Below are positions 5,607 through 63,963 of a stretch of 64,000 bases of DNA, piece after piece. The DNA lies in IMG/VR virus record IMGVR_UViG_3300027896_000014, positions 81,244 through 145,243 of that record. One strand, given 5' to 3'. The stretch's first letter is position 1. Each line of letters begins with the position of its first letter. Under the pieces are notes generated by a model. That model saw nothing but the letters and a program-made list of their open reading frames with translations, had not been told where the DNA came from and made no database searches. The position numbers were made by a program, and so were the translations under genes. This DNA is from a virus.

Positions 5607-7328
5607 CTATGTGCTGGATATGGTCTCAGTCGCACTCGCACTGTCGCTACGGCTCATTGATGCAGCCGCATGGATACTCGACAATGCACCGGCCACTTCT
5701 TGGGCAACGATGGCTCCCATAGCCTTGACAACCTCAATCCTTAATCCGGTGAGAGCTTCGTACTCGTTGATCTGGATTTCAGCATTTTTTTGATAGAGCC
5801 CTGCCCTCGAAATGGCAAGATTCGTTTGCGTCTTCAAGATCTCAATCGCAACGCTACTTAATGCCTGATATGCCTGAATATTAGCCCTGTATGCATCAAC
5901 TTCCGCATTAAAGGTCTTAACCAAGGCATCAATTCTGGCCGATTCTGCCTCAACCCCTACTCTAAACGCCGTTACTTCAGCCACATATGAATCCACAAGG
6001 GTTCTGGCTTCAGCTATCTTTACGTTTGAAACGGCTTGATACACTTTTATGGGAGCGTCTACCCTCGCTATCTCTGCATCGACCCCTACTCTGTACGCTC
6101 CCACCTCAGCTACGTATGTATCCACAAGGGTTCTGGCTTCAGCTATCTTTACGTTTGAAACGGCTTGATACACTTTTATGGGAGCGTCTACCCTCGCTAT
6201 CTCTGCATCGACCCCTACTCTGTACGCTCCCACCTCAGCTGTATAAATATCGACAGAATTCTTTGCTTCAGCTATCTTCACGTTTGAAACCACTTGATAA
6301 ATATCGGTCATAATTCGATATTTTCCGATTTCAATATTATAAACTTGAATTTTGGCCTCAACGGTCGCTCTCGAGGCCTCAAAAAGTCTCTGCTGAGTCG
6401 TTTGAAGGAAGTTCATCAAAATGCTTTCGAGTTGGGTAGCCTGAGCGATTGCTGACTGCCGAACCTGGATGGCAAGGTTTGACTCTTCAATTGCAATTTG
6501 GCCGCTTCTGTCATCATACGCATTTGCATATCTGATGTCCTCAGATTCAACTGCTGCCGATAAAGCTCCATCCGGCAAAGGTAAACCGCTCTTGGACCAC
6601 TCGGCACGTTTCTGGGCCAACATATCCTGATGGAGCAGTAAATCCCTTGCTCTCGCCCTATTCCACTTTGCGGTTTCGACAGATGGTCTATCTATGTCCG
6701 TCTGGACATCAGCTAATAAACGTGCCTTGAGAGCTGTCAGCAATGGTGATTCATACGTTACCGCAGCAGGATTGATGGGATCGGTTTGAACAACAAGGCC
6801 ACTGATGTCTGGAATGGCTAAGCCGCTGAGATCAATGGTTTTAAGATTACCTTTATCCGGGGGCAATCCAATGTTAAAAGTTATATCAGGAGCAGGCAGA
6901 TCAAGACTAAAAGTTTGTCTGACCGGAGGCGATCCAAAATTCATCGTGCTGTCAGGAACAGACAGATCAAGACTAATGGCTTGTCTGACCGGAGGCGATC
7001 CAATGTTCATCGCGCTATCAGGAACAGGCAGATCAAGACTAAAGGTTTGTATGACCGGAGGCGATCCAATGTTCATTGAGGTATCAGGTTTTGTAGGTGT
7101 CGTCTCGGTGAATGGAGTAATGGAATAATCGGCACCCTCAAGCGCGACGTTTGTATCAATTTGCTTGATTTGACCGGAGATGGTCGCAAGATTATTCAAG
7201 AGTCCTTCAGCCAAATTTCTTGCCTGCGTCACATAGTCTCGGGCCAGATCGAATTGTTTTTCAACCTCGACCATCGCCACTTCATAAATAGGGACACCGC
7301 CAACGGTGCCAGGGGTGCCATTAGACAT
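5607..7328 (-). CDS. Repeat-rich alpha-helical virion protein (573 aa)
   Basis: ATG at 7328 follows AAGGAGGCTACA. Residues 80-170 hold three or four copies of a short unit (NIGSPPVxQxxSLDLPxPD). Residues 330-480 are built of about 43-residue helical repeats (VKIAEARTLVDxYVAEVGAYRVGVDAE). Two of these are exact at DNA level with a period of 129 bp (5991-6240), so duplication is recent. The rest is helical, with many alanines and few cysteines. The profile suits an elongated structural protein; the function is not recognised. Confidence 0.6.
   Translation of the reverse strand: MSNGTPGTVGGVPIYEVAMVEVEKQFDLARDYVTQARNLAEGLLNNLATISGQIKQIDTNVALEGADYSITPFTETTPTKPDTSMNIGSPPVIQTFSLDLPVPDSAMNIGSPPVRQAISLDLSVPDSTMNFGSPPVRQTFSLDLPAPDITFNIGLPPDKGNLKTIDLSGLAIPDISGLVVQTDPINPAAVTYESPLLTALKARLLADVQTDIDRPSVETAKWNRARARDLLLHQDMLAQKRAEWSKSGLPLPDGALSAAVESEDIRYANAYDDRSGQIAIEESNLAIQVRQSAIAQATQLESILMNFLQTTQQRLFEASRATVEAKIQVYNIEIGKYRIMTDIYQVVSNVKIAEAKNSVDIYTAEVGAYRVGVDAEIARVDAPIKVYQAVSNVKIAEARTLVDTYVAEVGAYRVGVDAEIARVDAPIKVYQAVSNVKIAEARTLVDSYVAEVTAFRVGVEAESARIDALVKTFNAEVDAYRANIQAYQALSSVAIEILKTQTNLAISRAGLYQKNAEIQINEYEALTGLRIEVVKAMGAIVAQEVAGALSSIHAAASMSRSDSASATETISST
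5991..6240. repeat. Tandem 129-bp duplication inside a virion gene
   Basis: Bases 5991-6111 and 6120-6240 are identical over 121 bp with an offset of 129 bp, that is 43 codons in frame. A third, diverged copy lies on either side. The exact copies indicate a recent in-frame expansion of the helical repeat. Confidence 0.9.
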
Positions 7329-9818: not shown

Positions 9819-10696
9819 TACGATTCCTCTGTCACATTCTTAAGGCGGACCCTTTGATAAGCAAAACTTCCCTCTGGCGCTTGATCTGGCATCTTTAAGG
9901 AGGTTTTCTCATAAGCAAAATCTCCTTCTTTTCCAGGTTCACCAGGTCTCAATTTTAAAAATTGATATCCGAATTTCTCTAGAACTTTCGCTTTGACCTG
10001 AAATACGCTAATTGCATCAATTCTATGAAGGTGTTGAAGTGCCTGGACGATAAGAAAATGGTTTTGAGATAAATCTACTGTCCCCAAAGAATGGCTATGG
10101 ATTAGATCCTCTACCACCAAAATGAATGAAATAAGAAGAGCAACATTCCCTATCCCGTGAGCGTGTGCTAAACTATCCACAAGAAGGTTATGAACCTGGG
10201 AAAGGCTAACTCCACCCAAGGCGTGTGAATGATTTATGGCTTGGACGACAAGCTGATGGATCTGTGTCAGCGTAGGTGCATCGATAGAGTGGGTGTGGGA
10301 GAGAACTTGGACAATCAGATTATGGATCTGCGTAAGCGCAATATTATCGATCGTATTCGCGTGGGCAAGGTTCGCCACCGCAAGGTTATGAACCTGGGAA
10401 AGGCTAACTCCACCCAAGGCGTGTGAATGATTTATGGCTTGGACGACAAGCTGATGGATCTGAAATAAGGTCAGTCCACCATCAATGGCATGCGCATGGG
10501 AAAGAGCCTCCACTACCAAGAGATGAATCTGGGTTAGAACAATATTGTCAATGGCGTTGGCGTGGCTTAGAGCATCAACCGTAAGATTATGGACCTGCGT
10601 GAGCGCAACACCATCAATAGCGTTGGCATGGGCTAAATTGTCCACGGCCAACTGAAACTCTCCGCAAATAATAGGAACTATCCAATTAGGAAGCAT
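9818..10696 (-). CDS. Histidine-repeat structural protein (292 aa)
   Basis: I place the start at ATG 10696, which forms TGATG with the upstream stop and has GGAG nine bases before it; a longer reading from 10756 is possible. Residues 15-235 are ten tandem units of about 22 residues, each of the form L-[VA]-V-x-x-[AL]-x-H-[SA]-[HN]-x-[IL]-[DG]-x-x-x-L-[ST]-Q-[IV]-H. The regular HxH spacing suggests a beta-solenoid, possibly with metal along one face. The C-terminal 60 residues are charged. Such repeats occur in phage tail proteins. Confidence 0.6.
   Translation of the reverse strand: MLPNWIVPIICGEFQLAVDNLAHANAIDGVALTQVHNLTVDALSHANAIDNIVLTQIHLLVVEALSHAHAIDGGLTLFQIHQLVVQAINHSHALGGVSLSQVHNLAVANLAHANTIDNIALTQIHNLIVQVLSHTHSIDAPTLTQIHQLVVQAINHSHALGGVSLSQVHNLLVDSLAHAHGIGNVALLISFILVVEDLIHSHSLGTVDLSQNHFLIVQALQHLHRIDAISVFQVKAKVLEKFGYQFLKLRPGEPGKEGDFAYEKTSLKMPDQAPEGSFAYQRVRLKNVTEES
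10184..10462. repeat. 81-bp exact direct repeat within the histidine-repeat gene
   Basis: Bases 10184-10264 and 10382-10462 are identical, offset by 198 bp (three 22-residue units). Protein units four and seven are therefore identical, showing recent recombination within the array. Confidence 0.9.
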
Positions 10697-11183: not shown

Positions 11184-13010
11184 CTACCTCCTTCTGCCAT
11201 ACGCATGAACAGGTTGTGTTCTTGCAAGAACTCCCCTCCTATTCATTGCCGAAATGTTTGGATAGTGAATCAGCTTAAAGTTTTCAGATGAATATTTATC
11301 CTCATATGCCCCAAGGCCCAGTGGGAGTGATTTCGTAGGGTCCCATGACGCACTCAAGGCTGCTCCAGGCTTATAGGCCCAAGCCCCCGTATATTCCCAA
11401 CGAGTAGCAAATTCCGTCTGGAGAGTTGTATCAAGGAATGCACTGATATAAGCCACATTCCCAGAAACTCCCCCACCCGATATCGCTCCATAGAGCGGAG
11501 TCCTAACTGTCGGGGTTGTATACGCAAAGGCAGTCGGATAGACCAAATTTATATGAGTACCATCTGGAATGGAGAAAATTCTGTTTAGCTCCCTATGGGC
11601 GGCATCTCCGATGCAAACTATTTCCCATTGTACAAATGGAGCACTGCTTGTTACCGGAATTGATGTTACTCCGGCGGCAACGCTGCTCGCCGCAGTCGTC
11701 TTGGTTGCATCATTTGCAATTATTGGGTTGGATGGATCTGGCGTAAAATTTTTCCAATCTCTTGATCTATATATTCCCGTTTGATAAACCCCTCCAGATT
11801 TCTCCCCTTGACCATAGAGGGTAATTTCTCCTCTCTGAACAAAAATATCTCCTGGTGCTACTACTGTATCGTTCCACGATCCACCTGCACCAACTAAAAT
11901 TATCGGGTTAGCTGGATCTGCAACCCAGGGACCAGAGACAGAGCCCGATGTAAAATGTCCAATTTGCCATACCGATGATACATTGACCCCCCCAACATAC
12001 ATATGCCATGTTCTTGAGGCCAAATCATAGGTAACGGCAGAAAATCCATGTCCATTAACATCCCATGTCCCCGCAGCTCCCGGGGTATCCATATAGCCCA
12101 CATCGGTAAATGTCGCCCCAAGATCTGCCGAGTAAGCAAGGCGAATTCTATATTTTGCATCACCGTTCCGGTAGGCTGTGTAAAAAAGATAAATCTTTCC
12201 ATTGAACCAAATAGGATTAGGAGCATAGACCGTATTTTCTCCACTCAGGGCAGCAATCGAAGCATTATATCCATCCCATCGGTGAAATTTAACTCCGCTA
12301 TCATAAGAAAGCGCTCTAAAAATATATTGAGTTGTGCTCACCTGCCCGTTGTAAAAAGCAATCATCACGGGGTCATTCGAAAATTTGCAAAAGTCGGTTT
12401 TCATTGAAGTAATATAATAATAATCCGTCCATGGTTCACCCCAGTAAAGATAAAGGGTTGTATAGGCTTTTATACCTGAAAAGGCAACGGGGAGAGTTTC
12501 AGCTATTGACATGGTATCCCCAAATGCCCTAATAGAAATTCTAAAGGAGCCTCCCTTGACAATTAATGAAATGTCTATCCAATAAGCCTGTCCTATGGAA
12601 AAACCGGTAGAAGATGTGCTCCAAGTACTACCGGTCCAATAATAAACCGTACCGGTAGTTACCTGTTTATATTCTATGTAAACTTTCCCAGCGCTCTGAA
12701 CGTAGTAAACCACAACGGGAGTTTTTGCGTTTTGATTAGTAAATGTGTCACATGCCGGGGTTCCATCTTCGAGACAGAGCAAATGGACATAGCCATTAAC
12801 CGTGCCATCCATCAAATGCCGCATCGTGTAGACAAAATCCTTTGTCGTGTCTATGGCGGACTTGACATAAACCAATGCCCCGTTAGCTGCTGCAGCGGAC
12901 ATTGTAATATTACACGAACCCCCAGCATTGGAGACAGCTCCATCTCCGGCTACGGATGTTCCGAAGACATTGGTATCGAGTGTGCTATCAAAATTATCAA
13001 GCCAACTCAT
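11184..13010 (-). CDS. Tail fibre or depolymerase-like protein with beta-propeller region (608 aa)
   Basis: The start at 13010 overlaps the upstream stop (ATGA). Residues 1-200 form a concanavalin/LamG-like beta-sandwich region. Residues 215-600 show recurring blade-like signatures (KIYLFYTAYRN, AYSADLGATF, TWHMYVGGVN), as in five-bladed propellers of glycoside hydrolase families 43/32-like. A glycan-binding or glycan-cleaving tail protein is the best reading; I cannot confirm catalytic acids without a structure. Confidence 0.6.
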   Translation of the reverse strand: MSWLDNFDSTLDTNVFGTSVAGDGAVSNAGGSCNITMSAAAANGALVYVKSAIDTTKDFVYTMRHLMDGTVNGYVHLLCLEDGTPACDTFTNQNAKTPVVVYYVQSAGKVYIEYKQVTTGTVYYWTGSTWSTSSTGFSIGQAYWIDISLIVKGGSFRISIRAFGDTMSIAETLPVAFSGIKAYTTLYLYWGEPWTDYYYITSMKTDFCKFSNDPVMIAFYNGQVSTTQYIFRALSYDSGVKFHRWDGYNASIAALSGENTVYAPNPIWFNGKIYLFYTAYRNGDAKYRIRLAYSADLGATFTDVGYMDTPGAAGTWDVNGHGFSAVTYDLASRTWHMYVGGVNVSSVWQIGHFTSGSVSGPWVADPANPIILVGAGGSWNDTVVAPGDIFVQRGEITLYGQGEKSGGVYQTGIYRSRDWKNFTPDPSNPIIANDATKTTAASSVAAGVTSIPVTSSAPFVQWEIVCIGDAAHRELNRIFSIPDGTHINLVYPTAFAYTTPTVRTPLYGAISGGGVSGNVAYISAFLDTTLQTEFATRWEYTGAWAYKPGAALSASWDPTKSLPLGLGAYEDKYSSENFKLIHYPNISAMNRRGVLARTQPVHAYGRRR

Positions 13011-23984: not shown

Positions 23985-24063
23985 TGGTAGCGGGGGTTAG
24001 ATTTGAACTAACGAATTTTCTGGGTATGAGCCAGACGCCCTAACCAGACTGGGCCACCCCGCA
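23985..24063 (-). tRNA. tRNA with CAU anticodon (Met, or Ile2 if lysidine-modified)
   Basis: A 79-nt cloverleaf with encoded CCA. D stem GCCC/GGGC, anticodon stem TCTGG/CCAGA with loop CTCATAC, T stem GTTAG/CTAAC with loop TTCAAAT, acceptor GCGGGG/CCCCGC at pairs 2-7. Position 1 is T facing T at 72, so the end pair is unpaired, as in bacterial initiators (C1xA72). The anticodon stem lacks the three G-C pairs of an initiator, and 11:24 is of elongator type. It lies between a terminator and a divergent HNH gene. Confidence 0.85.
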
Positions 24064-24080
24064 TTTTTCTAAATACTTTG

Positions 24081-24109
24081 TTGACACGTCCCTTCATTAC
24101 TGATATATT
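24081..24109 (+). promoter_or_regulatory. Promoter for the HNH gene at 24137
   Basis: TTGACA at 24081-24086, 17-base spacer, TATATT at 24104-24109; AAGGAG lies ahead of the ATG at 24137. It fires away from the tRNA. Confidence 0.8.
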
Positions 24110-24136
24110 TAATAAAATCCATAACAAGGAGAATTT

Positions 24137-24730
24137 ATGCTTACACTTAAAGGAAGGCAGCTCGGCGGCAGGGCCGCCAATAAAGTTTGTTACGAACGTG
24201 CCAAAGTACTGTATTACGCCTCTCCAAATCACTGCCAATACTGCGGTAAAATAATTCAAATAGTGAGAGTAATTCAAGAAGCTCGAAGAAAGAAATTTTG
24301 TAATAAGTCTTGTGTGGCTTCCTTTCAGCATGAGAAGTTTAGGAACCGCCCGATTGCCCCTAACCGCATTTGTCCAGATTGCGGAGGTAAAAAGGAAAAA
24401 GCGAGTAACAAAAGATGCTTGGCTTGTTACCGTCTCAGCCACCGTATGAGTCCAGAAAGAACCAAGGCATCTTTGATTTCTGGAAGGAAGACTTGGCAAT
24501 CCTTTAGAAACGCCATCTCCAAACACGCCCGATTGGTATTTCTTGAAGCCAATATTAAAAAGTCTTGCTATGTGTGCGACTATGACAAACATACGGACGT
24601 TGCCCATAATAAACGTGTCTCGGAGTTTCCGGACAGTGCTACGATAGCCGAAATAAATTCCTTGGATAACCTTTTTGCACTTTGCCCGAACCACCATTTC
24701 GAACATGATCATGGTCTCCTAAAACTTTAA
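24137..24730 (+). CDS. HNH endonuclease with zinc fingers, next to tRNA (197 aa)
   Basis: Has its own promoter and SD. Residues 33-60 (CQYCGKI, CNKSC) and 77-95 (CPDCGG, CLAC) are two zinc knuckles. Residues 140-190 hold the nuclease core (CYVCDYD, THTDVAHNKRV-like histidines, NLFALCPNHHFEHDHG). Stand-alone HNH genes beside tRNAs and capsid genes are common mobile intruders. The opposite orientation to phage genes supports that. Confidence 0.8.
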   Translation: MLTLKGRQLGGRAANKVCYERAKVLYYASPNHCQYCGKIIQIVRVIQEARRKKFCNKSCVASFQHEKFRNRPIAPNRICPDCGGKKEKASNKRCLACYRLSHRMSPERTKASLISGRKTWQSFRNAISKHARLVFLEANIKKSCYVCDYDKHTDVAHNKRVSEFPDSATIAEINSLDNLFALCPNHHFEHDHGLLKL

Positions 24731-39366: not shown

Positions 39367-40977
39367 TCATCGTCTCCCTTGGCTTTTATGCAATCCGATA
39401 TTGACAGCGTAGGATTGAGCTAATTTTTGGGGCGGCGGCATATCCGCGGGCTTTGTACGCCTTTGCGTAACCATTGAACAATAAACGACCGCCTCACCTT
39501 TGTCGGGGGATCTTCCCAGCCTCCTCTTGAGTCCGGCAATCTTCACCCCATCAGCCCCGATCTTATCCTCTTTTGACTCGATCAGAATCCCCCCAGGAGT
39601 CAACATCCAGAGTGGAGCACATAGATCAGCTTTCAGTTCAGGGTCTGAAGGTAGAGCCACTTTGTCACCCATCAAAGGGTCCAAACTCTCCCGAAATCTC
39701 CACCACATATAGGACCGCATATTACGGAAACGATACTTCTGGGTGGCCTTGTCGGTCTTTCCCTCGAGTCCCTTTGTCCCGCCAGAATCTATTGCAATTA
39801 CTTGTACTTTAACGTTTGTCTTTAGAAAGTCTACCACGGCTCCGCCTACTCCAATTCCATCAACATGGATCGGTGCCCCATCACGCATAGCTTCAATAAC
39901 CTTACCGGCCGCTGATTGGCCATCGGGCGTCTGTACTCCGGGATAGCAGATTAAAGGAGAGTACCAAGTGCCATATCTCGTGGAGATCACGGTTCGGTCA
40001 GTCCCACCTCGAGCCACATCAACCCCTATAGAATCCATGGCCCCCTTCTTCCCATCCTCTTTCCAGCGAGCCTGGGCTGCCTCAACCCATAATGTGGGGA
40101 TGACCTGCCACTCTGAGTCTTTAATACCGGCCTGAAAGTTCCCCTCACGCATTTGGGAACGGAGGGGCTCAGGAGATGCATTGAGCACCACTTCATAGTT
40201 CGTGCCCAGCAAGAAAGGATTATCTTCTAACTTTGAGGGGATAAAGGTTCGAGACATCGGCTTAACCATGACGCCTTTGACCCGGATCGGATTCCCACTT
40301 GGAAGCTCTACGTCCTTCCCATCGATGGTGGTATACCAACGGAGCTCGCCAGGTTTGGCAGGGTGTGGATGCTTTGAATCGATCCAGGGACCCCAAAACT
40401 GGATAACCCACCTTCCTTGTTCGTCCACAGGAGGGTTACCCGTACAAACGATTCGGCAGCGTTGGCCCTGGACGGTTGTTCTAAGCCAAAGGGAAAGGAA
40501 GCGGAACTGATGCTCAATGAAGTTACAAATTTCGTCAAAGCCGAGGAAGTCATGAGGGCGCCCTTGCCATCGTGTCTCATCACCAGGGTCCTTACAGCTA
40601 CCAAATTCTATCTGCCGGTCCGGAAGTCTCCAGATCAGTTGCTGAGAATTCCAACCATCCCGGGTGGCCAAGATCTCTGCCAATCGATCAACCAGTGCCA
40701 CCGTCTGCGTTGCCTCACGCCTAAAGATAATCGACCGCCTATGTTCGGTGAGGCTAAGGCCAAGAAGAAGATCGCTCTTGGACCCGCCGGCAGCTCCCCC
40801 AAAGAATAGGATATCTGCGGGGTTCTCCAGAGCATCCATCTGCGTCCCAGGAATCGGCGTCCACAATGGATGCTTCAGGCTTACCAAAACCTCCCGTTGC
40901 AGATCCTGGAGTTCGTCGGAATTCAACCGCTCTAAAATATGCGAGAGTTCAATTATTTGTTTGGCTGAGGATTGCAA
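39367..40977 (-). CDS. Terminase large subunit (536 aa)
   Basis: TTG start at 40977 behind AGGGGATATC. The ATPase shows a Walker A-like loop GGAAGGSKSD (residues 60-69) and Walker B FLGFDE (D148, E149); the nuclease half has VDVARGGTDRT (D320) and HVDGIGVGGAVVD. It cuts and pumps DNA into the prohead through the portal. Length is normal. A copy of the 14-bp palindrome lies inside its 3' coding region, where it encodes part of VTQRRTK. Confidence 0.9.
   Translation of the reverse strand: MQSSAKQIIELSHILERLNSDELQDLQREVLVSLKHPLWTPIPGTQMDALENPADILFFGGAAGGSKSDLLLGLSLTEHRRSIIFRREATQTVALVDRLAEILATRDGWNSQQLIWRLPDRQIEFGSCKDPGDETRWQGRPHDFLGFDEICNFIEHQFRFLSLWLRTTVQGQRCRIVCTGNPPVDEQGRWVIQFWGPWIDSKHPHPAKPGELRWYTTIDGKDVELPSGNPIRVKGVMVKPMSRTFIPSKLEDNPFLLGTNYEVVLNASPEPLRSQMREGNFQAGIKDSEWQVIPTLWVEAAQARWKEDGKKGAMDSIGVDVARGGTDRTVISTRYGTWYSPLICYPGVQTPDGQSAAGKVIEAMRDGAPIHVDGIGVGGAVVDFLKTNVKVQVIAIDSGGTKGLEGKTDKATQKYRFRNMRSYMWWRFRESLDPLMGDKVALPSDPELKADLCAPLWMLTPGGILIESKEDKIGADGVKIAGLKRRLGRSPDKGEAVVYCSMVTQRRTKPADMPPPQKLAQSYAVNIGLHKSQGRR
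39456..39469. promoter_or_regulatory. Palindrome copy 7, inside the terminase gene
   Basis: TACGCCTTTGCGTA with perfect arms within coding sequence near the terminase 3' end. One of two copies in coding DNA; a roadblock role is possible. Confidence 0.5.
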
Positions 40978-60113: not shown

Positions 60114-60617
60114 TTATGTCTTCTCTGTTTTAGCGTAATATCCCCACTTTAATTTCATCCCTAATCGAAGGCCATATTTAGCGAGCCCTCCCTCTAATTC
60201 AGTGAGTGATTTTTTGCCAAAATTACGGATGTCCAAAATTTCCCTGCGTGTCTTCTGCACCACTTCGCCAAGCGTTCTTAGATTCTGGTTTCGCAAGGCA
60301 CTGGCCGATCTTACGGTTAATTCAATGTCCCAGACAGGAGTATCGTAGAGTACCTTATCGATTTGATCGTAGACTTCACCTCGATTGGTATCATCAATTT
60401 GAGGATAACGATTCTTGATATAAGAGATCTTCTCAAGAAACTCTTTAATAAAAGCCTGTTTTTTTTCCTTGTCTTTAAATAACCAAAGTGCTTTTGCTTC
60501 GATCTGCCGTATCCTTTCGAAGGATAGCCCGATCATCGCCGATATCTCCCGTAGCGTTTTCCCCTTCTCTCGTTGTTCCAAAATAAATGTGGCTCTAACC
60601 AAATCAAATGTTTTCAC
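60114..60617 (-). CDS. Sigma region 4 / RNA polymerase alpha-CTD fusion (167 aa)
   Basis: GTG at 60617 behind AGGAGGGGAGCACGGAG. Residues 20-45 are sigma70 region 4.2 (TLREISAMIGLSFERIRQIE, AKAL), which reads the -35 box. Residues 95-155 are an alpha-CTD (WDIELTVRSASALRN, NFGKKSLTELEGGLAKYGL). DNA-contact residues of E. coli alpha map as R265=R103, G296=G134, K298=K136, S299=S137; N268 is S106. A charged helical linker joins them. It could redirect host polymerase or act as a decoy; first gene of the leftward phage operon. Confidence 0.8.
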   Translation of the reverse strand: MKTFDLVRATFILEQREKGKTLREISAMIGLSFERIRQIEAKALWLFKDKEKKQAFIKEFLEKISYIKNRYPQIDDTNRGEVYDQIDKVLYDTPVWDIELTVRSASALRNQNLRTLGEVVQKTRREILDIRNFGKKSLTELEGGLAKYGLRLGMKLKWGYYAKTEKT

Positions 60618-60697: not shown

Positions 60698-60811
60698 TCA
60701 TTCCTCTCTTTTAATCTTATAACTACCATCTTCCTGTTTTTCCCAAGACAGAACAACCTGGTAGTGGGTCAGTTTGAAAATATTCTCTCTTGCAATGCTT
60801 AACCAGTCATG
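60698..60811 (-). pseudogene. Start-less coding remnant
   Basis: Minus-strand open frame without an ATG reads NIFKLTHYQVVLSWEKQEDG and stops at 60698. The plausible amino-acid pattern suggests a gene whose 5' end was lost at the inverted repeat 60759-60775. Confidence 0.3.
60759..60775 (+). repeat. Left 17-bp inverted repeat of a 3.1-kb segment
   Basis: TGGTAGTGGGTCAGTTT; its exact reverse complement lies at 63859-63875. The next five bases inward match at four positions. Together they bound 60759-63875. Confidence 0.75.
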
Positions 60812-60818
60812 CTACGTT
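60790..60818 (+). promoter_or_regulatory. Promoter of the 79-residue gene
   Basis: TTGCAA at 60790-60795, 17-base spacer, TACGTT at 60813-60818; predicted start at the ATG 60825, so leaderless. Confidence 0.55.
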
Positions 60819-60824
60819 TAGGGC

Positions 60825-61064
60825 ATGATCAAGAAGAAAAGAAACCCCTCTGACATAAGTGTACTTGCTTATCAGATCGTAAAAGACGCCACCGAAGAAG
60901 TCAAAGAAGAAATCCCGATCAAAGAAAAAAACCCTGCTGCTGTTGCTCTTGGTCGCCTTGGAGGGTTAAAGGGTGGGAAAGCAAGGGCGGAAAAGCTTTC
61001 CAAAAAAGAACTTCGAGAATGGGGTCGAAAAGCTGCAAAAGCTCGATGGTCTAAAAAATCATAG
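60825..61064 (+). CDS. Small histone H1-like basic protein (79 aa)
   Basis: ATG at 60825. The second half (NPAAVALGRLGGLKGGKARA and KKAAKARW-type repeats, ending WSKKS) is the small lysine/alanine-rich family common near mobile elements and plasmids. DNA or RNA binding by charge. Lies inside the inverted-repeat segment and opposite to phage genes. Confidence 0.65.
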   Translation: MIKKKRNPSDISVLAYQIVKDATEEVKEEIPIKEKNPAAVALGRLGGLKGGKARAEKLSKKELREWGRKAAKARWSKKS

Positions 61065-61424
61065 TTTTATATCGACCTAAGGGTTATTCCTTCCCAATTA
61101 GAGTTCTAATTTGTCCCGCATTTAAATAATGGAATGTTCGCCAATGTCCTAATCTGAGTTCAAATTAGGACATTACTTATTTCTCTATATTAAGCATCCG
61201 TTATTTAGAGATACAAACAAATTGAAAAATATGATTATCTAAGTCGTTAATCATAAGTATCTAATAATATTAAATAATACCACATTCAATAAACCACATG
61301 AAGTTATGCGTATGACGGTTGAAGGCCAAGTCTAAAATATTCCTTGACATTTGAATATCTATTGTGCCAAAATAGAGTTAAGTGTAATAAGTAATAAGAA
61401 TCCACGTAAAAGGAGGGGCTGAGG
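61065..61424. other. 360-base AT-rich intergenic region with palindromes
   Basis: No gene. Holds AATTAGA/TCTAATT near 61096, a perfect 11-bp stem AATGTCCTAAT/ATTAGGACATT (61143-61174), and TTGACA at 61344-61349 with only a weak -10, which probably serves the gene at 61425. Confidence 0.6.
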
Positions 61425-61973
61425 ATGAGCCAAAAAGATAGACTCTTTGTAGATGCAATTAAAAAGATTGAAGACGATATAGGTGAATTGATTCAAGAGG
61501 TAAATAAAAAAAAGCGGGCAATCAATGCGATTTATGAAACCTTAGGGGAAAAAGCGCCATATGAGATTGAAGGGGAACCGAAGAGTTTTCAATTTAAACG
61601 GTCTCAGTTTTATGGTAAAAACTTTGCAACTGCTGTTCAAGAATTTTTGAAAATTAAGGGAGATGCGTGCACGTCAGAGGAAATTTATAATGGCCTTAGT
61701 GAAGGTGCTTTTGATTTCCCTTGGAAACCAAAAGATCGTCTTCGTATGGTTGCCATCTCACTTTCGACAAATCCGGCAGTGTTTCATAAGTTACCTAATA
61801 ACACATTTGGATTATCGGCTTGGTATTCAGAAATGCACCCAATACGGAAGAGAACCACAAAAGCAAGGAGGAAAAGAATTTCAAAAAATGAAGATCAATT
61901 GAAGGAAAAAGGATCGCCTAAACATATAAAGACAAATCCTGAAGATAGTGAAGTGAAAGGAGGGGATGTATGA
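61425..61973 (+). CDS. HARE-HTH-like winged-helix protein (182 aa)
   Basis: ATG at 61425 after AAAGGAGGGGCTGAGG. Residues 1-40 form a coiled coil; residues 63-135 (FATAVQEFLKIKGDACTSEEIYNGL, NPAVFHKLPNNTFGLSAWY) match the HARE-HTH winged helix found in chromatin and restriction-linked proteins. A basic tail follows. Possibly a DNA-binding regulator of this segment. Confidence 0.65.
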   Translation: MSQKDRLFVDAIKKIEDDIGELIQEVNKKKRAINAIYETLGEKAPYEIEGEPKSFQFKRSQFYGKNFATAVQEFLKIKGDACTSEEIYNGLSEGAFDFPWKPKDRLRMVAISLSTNPAVFHKLPNNTFGLSAWYSEMHPIRKRTTKARRKRISKNEDQLKEKGSPKHIKTNPEDSEVKGGDV

Positions 61974-62023
61974 TGCCACCAAAATCCAGCGCCGCAGCAA
62001 AAATTGCTGAGGGGCGGCGCTAA
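61970..62023 (+). CDS. 17-residue peptide with strong SD
   Basis: ATG overlaps the HARE-HTH stop, with AAAGGAGGGGATGT before it. Reads MMPPKSSAAAKIAEGRR. Its coding sequence is itself a strong hairpin (61988-62021), so function at RNA level is equally possible. Confidence 0.4.
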   Translation: MMPPKSSAAAKIAEGRR

Positions 62024-62103
62024 AACATAAATAAAAAAATGAGGGGAAGCATTCTGCTTGCGAGGCTCTATGCTTCTCCCTCATCCCCAAAAATTTATTT
62101 GGG
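61988..62103 (+). other. Three consecutive hairpins ahead of the tRNA
   Basis: AGCGCCGC/GCGGCGCT (61988-62021), ATGAGGGGAAGCAT/ATGCTTCTCCCTCAT (62039-62084, one bulge), CCCAAA/TTTGGG (62086-62103). They may terminate the upstream transcript or form a structured RNA. Confidence 0.55.
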
Positions 62104-62112
62104 ATATATGAT

Positions 62113-62185
62113 GCCCCTGTAGCTAAAAGGATATAGCAAATGGTTGCTACCCATTTTGTTCCCGGTTCAAGCCCGGGCAGGGGCA
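62113..62185 (+). tRNA. Arginine-type tRNA body with GCU anticodon
   Basis: A 73-nt cloverleaf: acceptor GCCCCTG/CAGGGGC, D stem GCTA/TAGC, anticodon stem AATGG/CCATT with loop TTGCTAC, T stem CCCGG/CCGGG with loop TTCAAGC, discriminator A. All stems pair fully. Anticodon GCT (62146-62148) reads serine AGY, but the variable loop has only five bases, so it is not a serine-type tRNA. A20, C35, U36 and A73 are arginine identity elements. No CCA is encoded. Confidence 0.8.
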
Positions 62186-62280
62186 CACCTATTTACAAAT
62201 GGCACAGATAAACTTTTTTGTCAAGCAAATAATGCTTAACCGGTCACGCAAGTTTTTCTTTTCACAATCTAAAATAATGC

Positions 62281-62309
62281 TTGACAATGCTTATGCGGAC
62301 AAGTATAAT
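62281..62309 (+). promoter_or_regulatory. Transposase promoter
   Basis: TTGACA at 62281-62286, 17-base spacer, TATAAT at 62304-62309: a consensus promoter. The start site would coincide with ATG 62316 (leaderless). Confidence 0.85.
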
Positions 62310-62315
62310 GTCATT

Positions 62316-63143
62316 ATGAATAAGCTGACGAAAGAGAAACAGAGGCAAGTGGTGGCAGCACTCGTCGAGGGTACTTCGATCCGGGCAACATGCCGAATGA
62401 CGGGCGTTGCTAAGAATACGGTCGTTAAGCTCTTGGTGGATCTCGGTAAAGCTTGTGCAGAATATCAAGATAAAGCTTTCCAAAATCTTACCTGTAGTCG
62501 TATCCAGGTCGATGAAATTTGGGCCTTCTGCTATGCCAAAGAAAAGAATGTACCAGAAGACAAAAAAGGTCAGTTTGGATATGGCGATGTTTGGACTTTT
62601 ACGGCGTTGGACGCTGAAACTAAGTTGGTTCCCGTTTTCTCCATCGGAAGACGTGATCTTGAATGTGCCACTGACTTTATGAAAGATTTAGCAAGTCGTC
62701 TTAAAAACCGCATCCAATTAACTACGGATGGGCATAAGATGTATTTAGAGGCTGTAGAAGAAGCTTTCGGTTCTGAAATTGATTTTAGTCAGCTTGTCAA
62801 AATATATGGGAATAGCGAAGAGAGTCAGAAACGATATAGTCCCGCTCAATGTATTGGTATAGAAAAAATAAAGATTAACGGCACCCCTAAAGATGAAAGT
62901 ATCTCAACAAGCTATGTAGAGAGGCAAAACTTAACAATGCGGATGAATATGAGAAGATTTACAAGACTGACAAATGGATTTTCAAAAAAGGTTGAAAATC
63001 TTTACTATGCGGAAGCCTTGTATTTCATGTATTATAATTTCTGTAGGATTCATCAGACCCTAAGAGTAACCCCGGCAATGGCAGCAAAAGTAACGGATCG
63101 GCTTTGGGACATTAAGGATATTATTGCTTTGTTAAAAGGATAA
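62316..63143 (+). CDS. IS1-like transposase (275 aa)
   Basis: ATG 62316 (MNKLTKEKQRQVVAALVEG). HTH RATCRMTGVAKNTVVKLL (residues about 22-39), then the DDE-type core: RIQVDEIWAF (first D), QLTTDGHKMYL (second D), and later a glutamate near NLTMRMNMRRFTRLTNGFSK. The family matches IS1-like single-ORF transposases. Apparently intact. Typical short left and right ends are not certain; TGGTAGTGTGTATCG lies just after the stop. Confidence 0.8.
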   Translation: MNKLTKEKQRQVVAALVEGTSIRATCRMTGVAKNTVVKLLVDLGKACAEYQDKAFQNLTCSRIQVDEIWAFCYAKEKNVPEDKKGQFGYGDVWTFTALDAETKLVPVFSIGRRDLECATDFMKDLASRLKNRIQLTTDGHKMYLEAVEEAFGSEIDFSQLVKIYGNSEESQKRYSPAQCIGIEKIKINGTPKDESISTSYVERQNLTMRMNMRRFTRLTNGFSKKVENLYYAEALYFMYYNFCRIHQTLRVTPAMAAKVTDRLWDIKDIIALLKG

Positions 63144-63202
63144 ATTATGGTAGTGTGTATCGATTTGAAATTTAGAAGAGATAGCAGTATGCTTATTGTC
63201 TT

Positions 63203-63730
63203 TTATATTTGGATTGGTTCCTCGTAGTCCTTTATCTTTGACAATGATTCATAGTAAGTAGTATCTAACCACTTTAGAAGCAAACTAATATATTCTGTGC
63301 AAAGTTTAGACTCCGTGCAGGGAACTTCAATTGTCAGACGAGTCCCTAAGGTGGTAAATAGCGAAGGGACTCGACCACTAAATAGTTGTTTTTCCTTATT
63401 CTCTAAGTCGCTTTCCTTGCTTAATTTTATAATGAGACCGTCGTATAAAACCGCTTTTTCTACTTCAATAAAATAGATAGTCTTATCTGTCGCTGGGCTT
63501 GCTGTAATCTTGGTCTTACCCAAATTCTTCAGGTTTCTTTCTACCGTGCCAGTCGCTACCCCAAAACGTATCTTGAGCAGGTCCCAAGCTTTATCCATAG
63601 TTGTTCCCATAGCTATAATTTTGTCCCGTATATCTGACAATTTGTCACTAACGTCTTTACGAAAGCCCGATAAACCAAAATATACAGCTACGGCTATTGC
63701 TAATAAACCTACAAATAGTCCCCACTCCAT
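63203..63730 (-). CDS. Membrane-anchored protein (175 aa)
   Basis: ATG at 63730. N-terminal helix (WGLFVGLLAIAVAVYFGLSG), then a coiled coil and a mixed soluble domain. No family recognised. Convergent with the transposase and inside the inverted-repeat segment. Confidence 0.55.
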   Translation of the reverse strand: MEWGLFVGLLAIAVAVYFGLSGFRKDVSDKLSDIRDKIIAMGTTMDKAWDLLKIRFGVATGTVERNLKNLGKTKITASPATDKTIYFIEVEKAVLYDGLIIKLSKESDLENKEKQLFSGRVPSLFTTLGTRLTIEVPCTESKLCTEYISLLLKWLDTTYYESLSKIKDYEEPIQI

Positions 63731-63963
63731 TGCTTTTACCTCACCGATTTTGTTTCGTCTGAGTAAATTATACCAATCTTGACCATATTAAACTACCACC
63801 ACCACCACCACCAATCATCCATAGATTACTCCTTTTTATTAATTTGTCAAGATTTTTTAAACTGACCCACTACCAAATTCTCAACAGAGTTGACTGTTTA
63901 TCAATTTCTTATAAAATAAATATATTGTCCGGGGGCCAATGGAATGATAGAAAGGGGGCATCC
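63731..63963. other. Intergenic region with ACC repeats
   Basis: Contains six ACC triplets (63795-63812), the right inverted repeat (63859-63875), and the leader of the response-regulator gene. No further gene seen. Confidence 0.6.
63859..63875 (-). repeat. Right 17-bp inverted repeat of a 3.1-kb segment
   Basis: AAACTGACCCACTACCA, the exact reverse complement of 60759-60775, pointing inward. Confidence 0.75.

Follow-up and report, generated by a model that had tools for sequence, protein, structure and literature searches.

The tRNA gene at positions 62113-62185 (+ strand) of the window, by which we mean the whole stretch of 64,000 nucleotides analysed here, combines an arginine-type body with the anticodon GCU, which reads the serine codons AGC and AGU. 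Mismatched tRNAs of a similar kind are found again and again next to the same few mobile genes in distant bacteria, so that the gene appears to belong to an undescribed mobile gene cassette and not to be an accident. The initial annotation of this DNA recognised the intact arginine-type body and the serine anticodon; the mistranslation that it proposed is not supported as a general rule, and it missed the linkage to a coiled-coil/winged-helix gene (CC-wHTH), a micro-ORF, a stem-loop and a DDE transposase gene.

An arginine-type tRNA with a serine anticodon

ARAGORN calls the gene tRNA-Ser (gct) at 62113-62186 on the + strand, and the Rfam model RF00005 matches 62113-62185 end to end (63.5 bits, E 2e-11); the RNA matches RF00005 only, not the tmRNA model RF00023. 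Pairing is complete in the acceptor stem (7/7), the T stem (5/5) and the D and anticodon stems (9/9), and the minimum free energy fold is a cloverleaf of -28.9 kcal/mol (z -2.28). The variable loop, UUGUU, has five bases, the long arm of seryl-type tRNAs being absent; the D loop, AAAGGAUA, contains A20, the anticodon loop reads UUGCUAC, position 73 is A73, and CCA is not encoded. The perfect cloverleaf, the missing long arm and the GCU anticodon described in the initial annotation are thus all borne out, as is its arginine identity set (A20, C35, U36, and A73) when compared with the bacterial rules, A20, C35, U/G36 and A/G73 (Table 1, PMC9976931). With these four elements and a short variable loop on one side and GCU on the other, the gene is by its sequence a candidate dual-identity (chimeric) tRNA, carrying the identity elements of one amino acid and the anticodon of another. 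For comparison, a type-I Arg-like pattern with the loop UUNCUAC was matched to viral sequences; it is isotype-permissive, which makes the comparison indicative only. Of 97 matches, 93 have U at the wobble position, two have C and two have G; the loop is therefore typical of Arg(UCU), the window tRNA having G in place of U. A difference at the wobble base had been noted before, yet with respect to an Arg(CCU) type, whereas the normal type for such a loop has UCU more frequently than CCU.

The tRNA lies at position 143356 of a phage-like virus record of 145,243 bp, the window being its bases 81244-145243, and is present there in a single copy. It is complete and has no second copy in the record, unlike an attachment-site tRNA fragment, and no integrase lies near it: the two found, at record positions 11237-12421 and 72517-73632 (the latter recognised by sequence), are far away. 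A further tRNA-like gene, of tRNA-Met type (CAU) with a U1/U72 mismatch and an archaeal-looking D arm, lies at 23985-24063 (-) and overlaps the 3' end of an ORF on the same strand (24008-24712).

Neighbouring genes and their recurrence

Upstream of the tRNA, CC-wHTH (61425-61973, +) encodes 182 amino acids, read by eye as an N-terminal coiled coil and a winged-helix-like C-terminal part; no Pfam family was found for it. A promoter-like site, TTGACA-18-CAAAAT (61344-61373, +; consensus match only), precedes its start by 51 nt. A micro-ORF of 17 codons (MMPPKSSAAAKIAEGRR and a stop; 61970-62023, +), with counterparts in relatives, follows a strong Shine-Dalgarno-like AAAGGAGG (61956-61963, +), its start overlapping the CC-wHTH stop codon as ATGA. 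Between micro-ORF and tRNA stands a stem-loop, TGAGGGGAAGCAT...ATGCTTCTCCCTCA (62040-62083, +), found at the same place in nearly all relatives; it has no clear T run and was not called a terminator. CC-wHTH, micro-ORF, stem-loop and tRNA form an apparent operon. Since consensus matching finds the + strand free of promoter-like sites from 61374 up to the tRNA, the latter is predicted from the sequence to be probably co-transcribed with CC-wHTH.

Downstream, 130 nt after the tRNA, an IS1-like DDE transposase gene begins (62316-63143, +; 275 aa; assigned by PF03400 and protein alignment). The enclosing ORF, 62199-63143, passes PF03400 marginally (24.7 bits vs a cut-off of 24.1), pointing to an IS1-type DDE domain. 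A perfect sigma-70-type promoter, TTGACA-17-TATAAT (62281-62309, +), ends 6 nt before its start codon, so that a message from it would be near-leaderless, and TTGAC stands at an equal distance from DDE in about 100 of 165 relatives. Farther upstream, a small basic protein (60825-61064, +) carries the motif LGGLKGGKARA. In 45 of 151 loci this motif is found no more than 2.5 kb upstream of DDE, and in none downstream; a relative of the protein on a Mesorhizobium plasmid is apparently the gene that bears the annotation 'histone H1'. The stretch 60800-63800 has no DNA similarity to phage records. At 60114-60617 (-) lies a phage protein in which a sigma-70 region-4-like helix-turn-helix (PF04545) is fused to an RNA polymerase alpha C-terminal domain (PF03118).

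The association with DDE was approached from both sides. A pattern for an Arg-like tRNA with GCU anticodon and short variable arm gave 13 viral and 45 genome stretches (about 58 loci, numbered with an L here); in four of them (L018, L032, L038, L060) a DDE relative follows on the same strand after 89-182 bp, and L055 has a DDE fragment. Conversely, the DDE protein as query led to 165 distinct loci, of which 18 have a tRNA within 400 nt upstream on the same strand (ARAGORN at default), against 0 on the opposite strand, 2 downstream and 0 in shuffled sequence. Counts of T-arms and fold scans for acceptor plus T-arm agree with this upstream bias; ARAGORN at an 80% threshold was discarded, its matches being equal on both strands. 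Part of the 18 had originally been found through their tRNA, and 16 further DDE loci from other groups were therefore examined: four have a tRNA upstream on the same strand, none on the opposite strand and none downstream. In the majority of DDE loci no tRNA is detectable, nor is there one upstream of DDE in six named plasmid loci. On Mesorhizobium, Methylocapsa, Acidiphilium and Hoeflea plasmids (L351, L352, L353, L354) DDE adjoins XRE-type or RES/Xre toxin-antitoxin genes, again with no tRNA, and a Shedu gene is near DDE once. In L365, two tandem mismatched-looking tRNAs stand just upstream of DDE, with two more tRNA or tRNA-Sec-like matches nearby.

A CC-wHTH-like gene precedes the tRNA or tRNA-like RNA on the same strand in the window and in L255, L256, L263, L018, L321, L230, L305, L030, L338 and L339; in L286 the two genes lie on opposite strands. 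Relatives of CC-wHTH used as query gave four matches in 199 genomes, recovering L030 and adding two new loci, in which CC-wHTH is followed by an Arg-like tRNA with anticodon ACU (L338) or by a tRNA-like RNA (L339). Among the weaker matches of a wider search, L346 (acceptor plus T-arm only) and L350 (large anticodon loop) have tRNA-like RNAs; L342, L343, L344 and L347 have none and may not be true members. No relative was confirmed in viral contigs, a scan for which profile A4 is too diverse. In some loci XRE plus RelE-like pairs, or a DUF-like gene, replace CC-wHTH upstream of the stem-loop and tRNA. Many relatives share a micro-ORF with a strong Shine-Dalgarno sequence between CC-wHTH and the RNA, with peptides such as MQHIVRSS, MTWHITRSSAVA, MWQLARTR, MWQPILLG, MPPPIASASRMGRRYDTK and MSKHRYDTS.

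Two other groups of GCU sequences came to light. In six unrelated bacteria (L029, L035, L036, L041, L049, L063) a tRNA-like sequence with short variable arm and GCU stands upstream of a SPFH/slipin-type-looking gene, a possible second tRNA-like linkage. Ten loci (L010, L023, L027, L034, L037, L039, L040, L043, L044, L053) have Arg-like arms and a GCU loop with an unpaired 3' acceptor; they often end in a CTTGAAAATTA-like sequence and are perhaps a separate tRNA-like or att-derived family.

Proposed charging without the matching codon

Across the linked loci, anticodons are mostly mismatched to the tRNA bodies, the types of which were assigned by eye from identity elements and not from model scores. 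Arg-like bodies found independently of the tRNA carry GCU (L286, L314, L321), ACU (L338, L357) or UGC (L322), that is, serine AGY anticodons in five of six and arginine-codon anticodons in none. Stem identity among L286, L314, L321, L338 and the window is just 38-79%, so the shared AGY anticodon is not simply due to recent copying. Ser-type long-arm bodies with G73 carry UAU (Ile; L323) or UUA (stop; L365), a Leu-like body carries UUA, making it an ochre suppressor (L226), and Glu-like bodies carry AGU and UGC (L164, L239), while L295 and L300, with GUA, are possibly Ser-like (G73) or else ordinary tRNA-Tyr. Five degenerate RNAs (L301, L305, L330, L339, L359) all have G3.U70, the alanine mark, and A73.

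We tentatively favour, at a confidence that stays short of even, a reading of these sequences in which the tRNA is a working part of a mobile accessory cassette, chargeable by the host and uncoupled from its own codons. It would be transcribed together with CC-wHTH and the micro-ORF, released by RNase P and given its CCA by the host, whose ArgRS would charge it through A20, C35 and U36; the GCU anticodon could not then bring arginine back to arginine codons. The rule common to the relatives might be to 'keep a charging identity, lose the matching codon'. Because ArgRS needs C35 and U36, Arg bodies can alter base 34 alone, hence GCU or ACU, whereas SerRS, LeuRS and AlaRS ignore the anticodon, leaving Ser, Leu and Ala bodies with free or broken anticodon loops (identity rules in PMC9976931). 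Most of the cases fit the rule, which is broken by the Glu-like L164 and L239 and by L322. The proposed action is most likely on translation, via the charged acceptor end: the window member would place an occasional arginine at AGC/AGU codons, non-decoding relatives would act more like the tRNA-like domain of tmRNA, and CC-wHTH would be the regulator and DDE the means of mobility. Support comes from the linkage holding both ways, from tRNA pattern to DDE and from DDE or CC-wHTH to tRNA. Against this reading stand the majority of DDE loci, in which no tRNA is detectable, the scatter of tRNA-bearing DDEs over the tree, a mobile unit that seems to start after the tRNA, and the AGY codons of DDE itself.

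Ser-to-Arg mistranslation as a general purpose, as first suggested, finds no support: related cassettes include RNAs with no usable anticodon loop, and several conserved serines of DDE itself, S175 and S199 among them, are encoded by AGY. Because of these serines, and because AGY use in DDE is not reduced, we rejected a recoding of DDE in which AGY is read as arginine. Suppression of in-frame DDE stops by the linked tRNA was also rejected; as such stops occur in loci without a matching tRNA (e.g. TGA in L323, where the tRNA has UAU), they look like decay.

A structural tRNA mimic that needs no charging, serving as a 3' processing signal or as a decoy for RNase P, anticodon nucleases or tRNA-modifying enzymes, would make the anticodon irrelevant. 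Such a role would suit the RNAs that keep the outer fold despite odd loops (roughly 30 nt in L230, 22 nt in L350, 8 nt in L279) or with acceptor and T-arm only (L346), as well as the stem-loop immediately 5' of the tRNA and the lack of promoter space in several loci. Yet A20, C35, U36 and G/A34 would not have persisted under drift in five of the six Arg-like bodies that were not selected for them, nor would G3.U70 in all five degenerate RNAs, and we regard the mimic as unlikely. Less probable still is an addiction pair of the CreT kind, in which the micro-ORF with its strong Shine-Dalgarno sequence and the stem-loop would sequester a tRNA, the linked tRNA giving relief. The anatomy fits the description of CreT (PMC8501985), toxin-antitoxin genes lie beside several loci, and some micro-ORFs have suggestive codons, ATG AGA AGA in L321, ATG AGA AGA AGA in L330, and AGC AGC in L338 and L263 with ACU/GCU tRNAs. 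However, codon and anticodon agree in some loci only (L321 pairs AGA with a GCU tRNA and L255 has no AGY), the AGY excess in micro-ORFs is post hoc, and similarity among the peptides (GRR-YDT; MWQ/ITRSS) suggests that the peptide itself has a function.

About as improbable is that DDE merely inserts downstream of tRNA genes, which then decay as target sites or relics. The mobile unit does appear to begin after the tRNA, and tRNA-bearing members are scattered on the DDE tree; but folds are intact and stems compensated, the anticodons are mismatched and not ordinary, no tRNAs lie on the opposite strand, and CC-wHTH plus tRNA occurs without DDE in L020, L030 and L338. An unexpressed relic, offered earlier as an alternative, is now unlikely, since independent, diverged loci share the same mismatch. 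The same observation leaves scant credibility to the idea that an ordinary tRNA-Arg(UCU) was misread or misassembled at its wobble base: the window comes from a single metagenomic record and UCU is the normal type of its loop, but the mismatch is found in independent genomes including isolates (L038, Bradyrhizobium frederickii).

Known systems, mobility and the record

The closest system in concept is the tRNAProX family with ProRSx of Streptomyces and Kitasatospora (PMC10365949), the precedent invoked in the initial annotation, which does exist. There too, a natural, genomically encoded tRNA has the body of one amino acid and the anticodon of another. The window tRNA differs in its Arg body and Ser anticodon, its mobile or phage setting, the linked CC-wHTH, micro-ORF, stem-loop and DDE, and the other bodies found in the same setting; and no synthetase gene, the counterpart of ProRSx, was found among the flanking ORFs run against Pfam. 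CreT of CreTA, a type VIII toxin-antitoxin system, consists of a strong Shine-Dalgarno sequence, AUG, consecutive minor codons and a stem-loop (PMC8501985). The window has a Shine-Dalgarno sequence, a micro-ORF and a stem-loop, but its micro-ORF lacks consecutive minor codons (L321 and L330 do have AGA runs); in contrast to CreT, a tRNA gene follows, no CRISPR-derived antitoxin is known here, and the codon match is inconsistent. L339, L359 and L330 resemble the tRNA-like domain of tmRNA in G3.U70, A73, a reduced D arm and a weak match to RF00023, below the gathering cut-off, whereas the window RNA is an ordinary cloverleaf with no mRNA-like domain, the short ORF preceding the RNA. DDE, just above the PF03400 cut-off and with relatives annotated as IS1 family transposases, departs from that family in that its relatives mostly number 1-3 per genome and show a strong association with accessory genes.

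The tRNA-bearing DDEs form no clade (19 changes on the tree vs 19.9 in shuffles); vertical inheritance of the tRNA with DDE is therefore not supported, and the RNA has often been gained or lost. Pairwise comparison places the apparent left boundary of the mobile unit ~40-60 bp before the DDE start, leaving the tRNA outside. Given this boundary and the scattered distribution, DDE is probably a unit distinct from the CC-wHTH-micro-ORF-stem-loop-tRNA group, the two often moving together. The candidate terminal motifs of the DDE unit, AAACTGA at the left and (A)ACTGA..CACTACC at the right side, stand in direct and not in inverted orientation.

Overall, these sequences may, though we hold this with more doubt than belief, represent an undescribed class of mobile cassette in phages and in bacteria of several phyla, in which a charged tRNA mimic deliberately uncoupled from its own codons (either a mismatched tRNA or a tRNA domain like that of tmRNA), a winged-helix regulator and a micropeptide would serve as a translation-directed weapon, an addiction device or a counter-defence device. 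Natural mismatched tRNAs are already known; the complete cassette stands a fair chance of being a new kind. Very few systems are known to contain dual-identity tRNAs in nature. A mobile set that recurs and comprises several body types would offer a natural sample of which synthetases tolerate anticodon change, and would bear on whether mobile elements use mistranslation. Anticodon-based annotation mislabels such genes, the window one being called tRNA-Ser; in genomes, they may be sought directly after CC-wHTH genes and just upstream of the IS1-like DDE family.

As for the record, an exact 127-bp repeat stands at its ends (1-127 and 144991-145117, the latter at window 63748-63874), ending in AAACTGACCCACTACC, the motif that closes many DDE units; the last 126 bases, after the right copy, read into the likely start of a response regulator (VEDRILIVDDEE) and are perhaps host DNA. 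Terminases, integrases and RecT/SbcC modules (81% DNA identity over 3 kb) each occur twice in the record, in opposite overall orientation (whole record; window 39367-40977 and L002:17706-19253), which makes it probable that two prophages lie in tandem or that the assembly is a joined one. Direct repeats of 75-89% identity lie inside large genes by a tail-like gene cluster, at window 5944-6299, 6857-7088 and 10184-10597.
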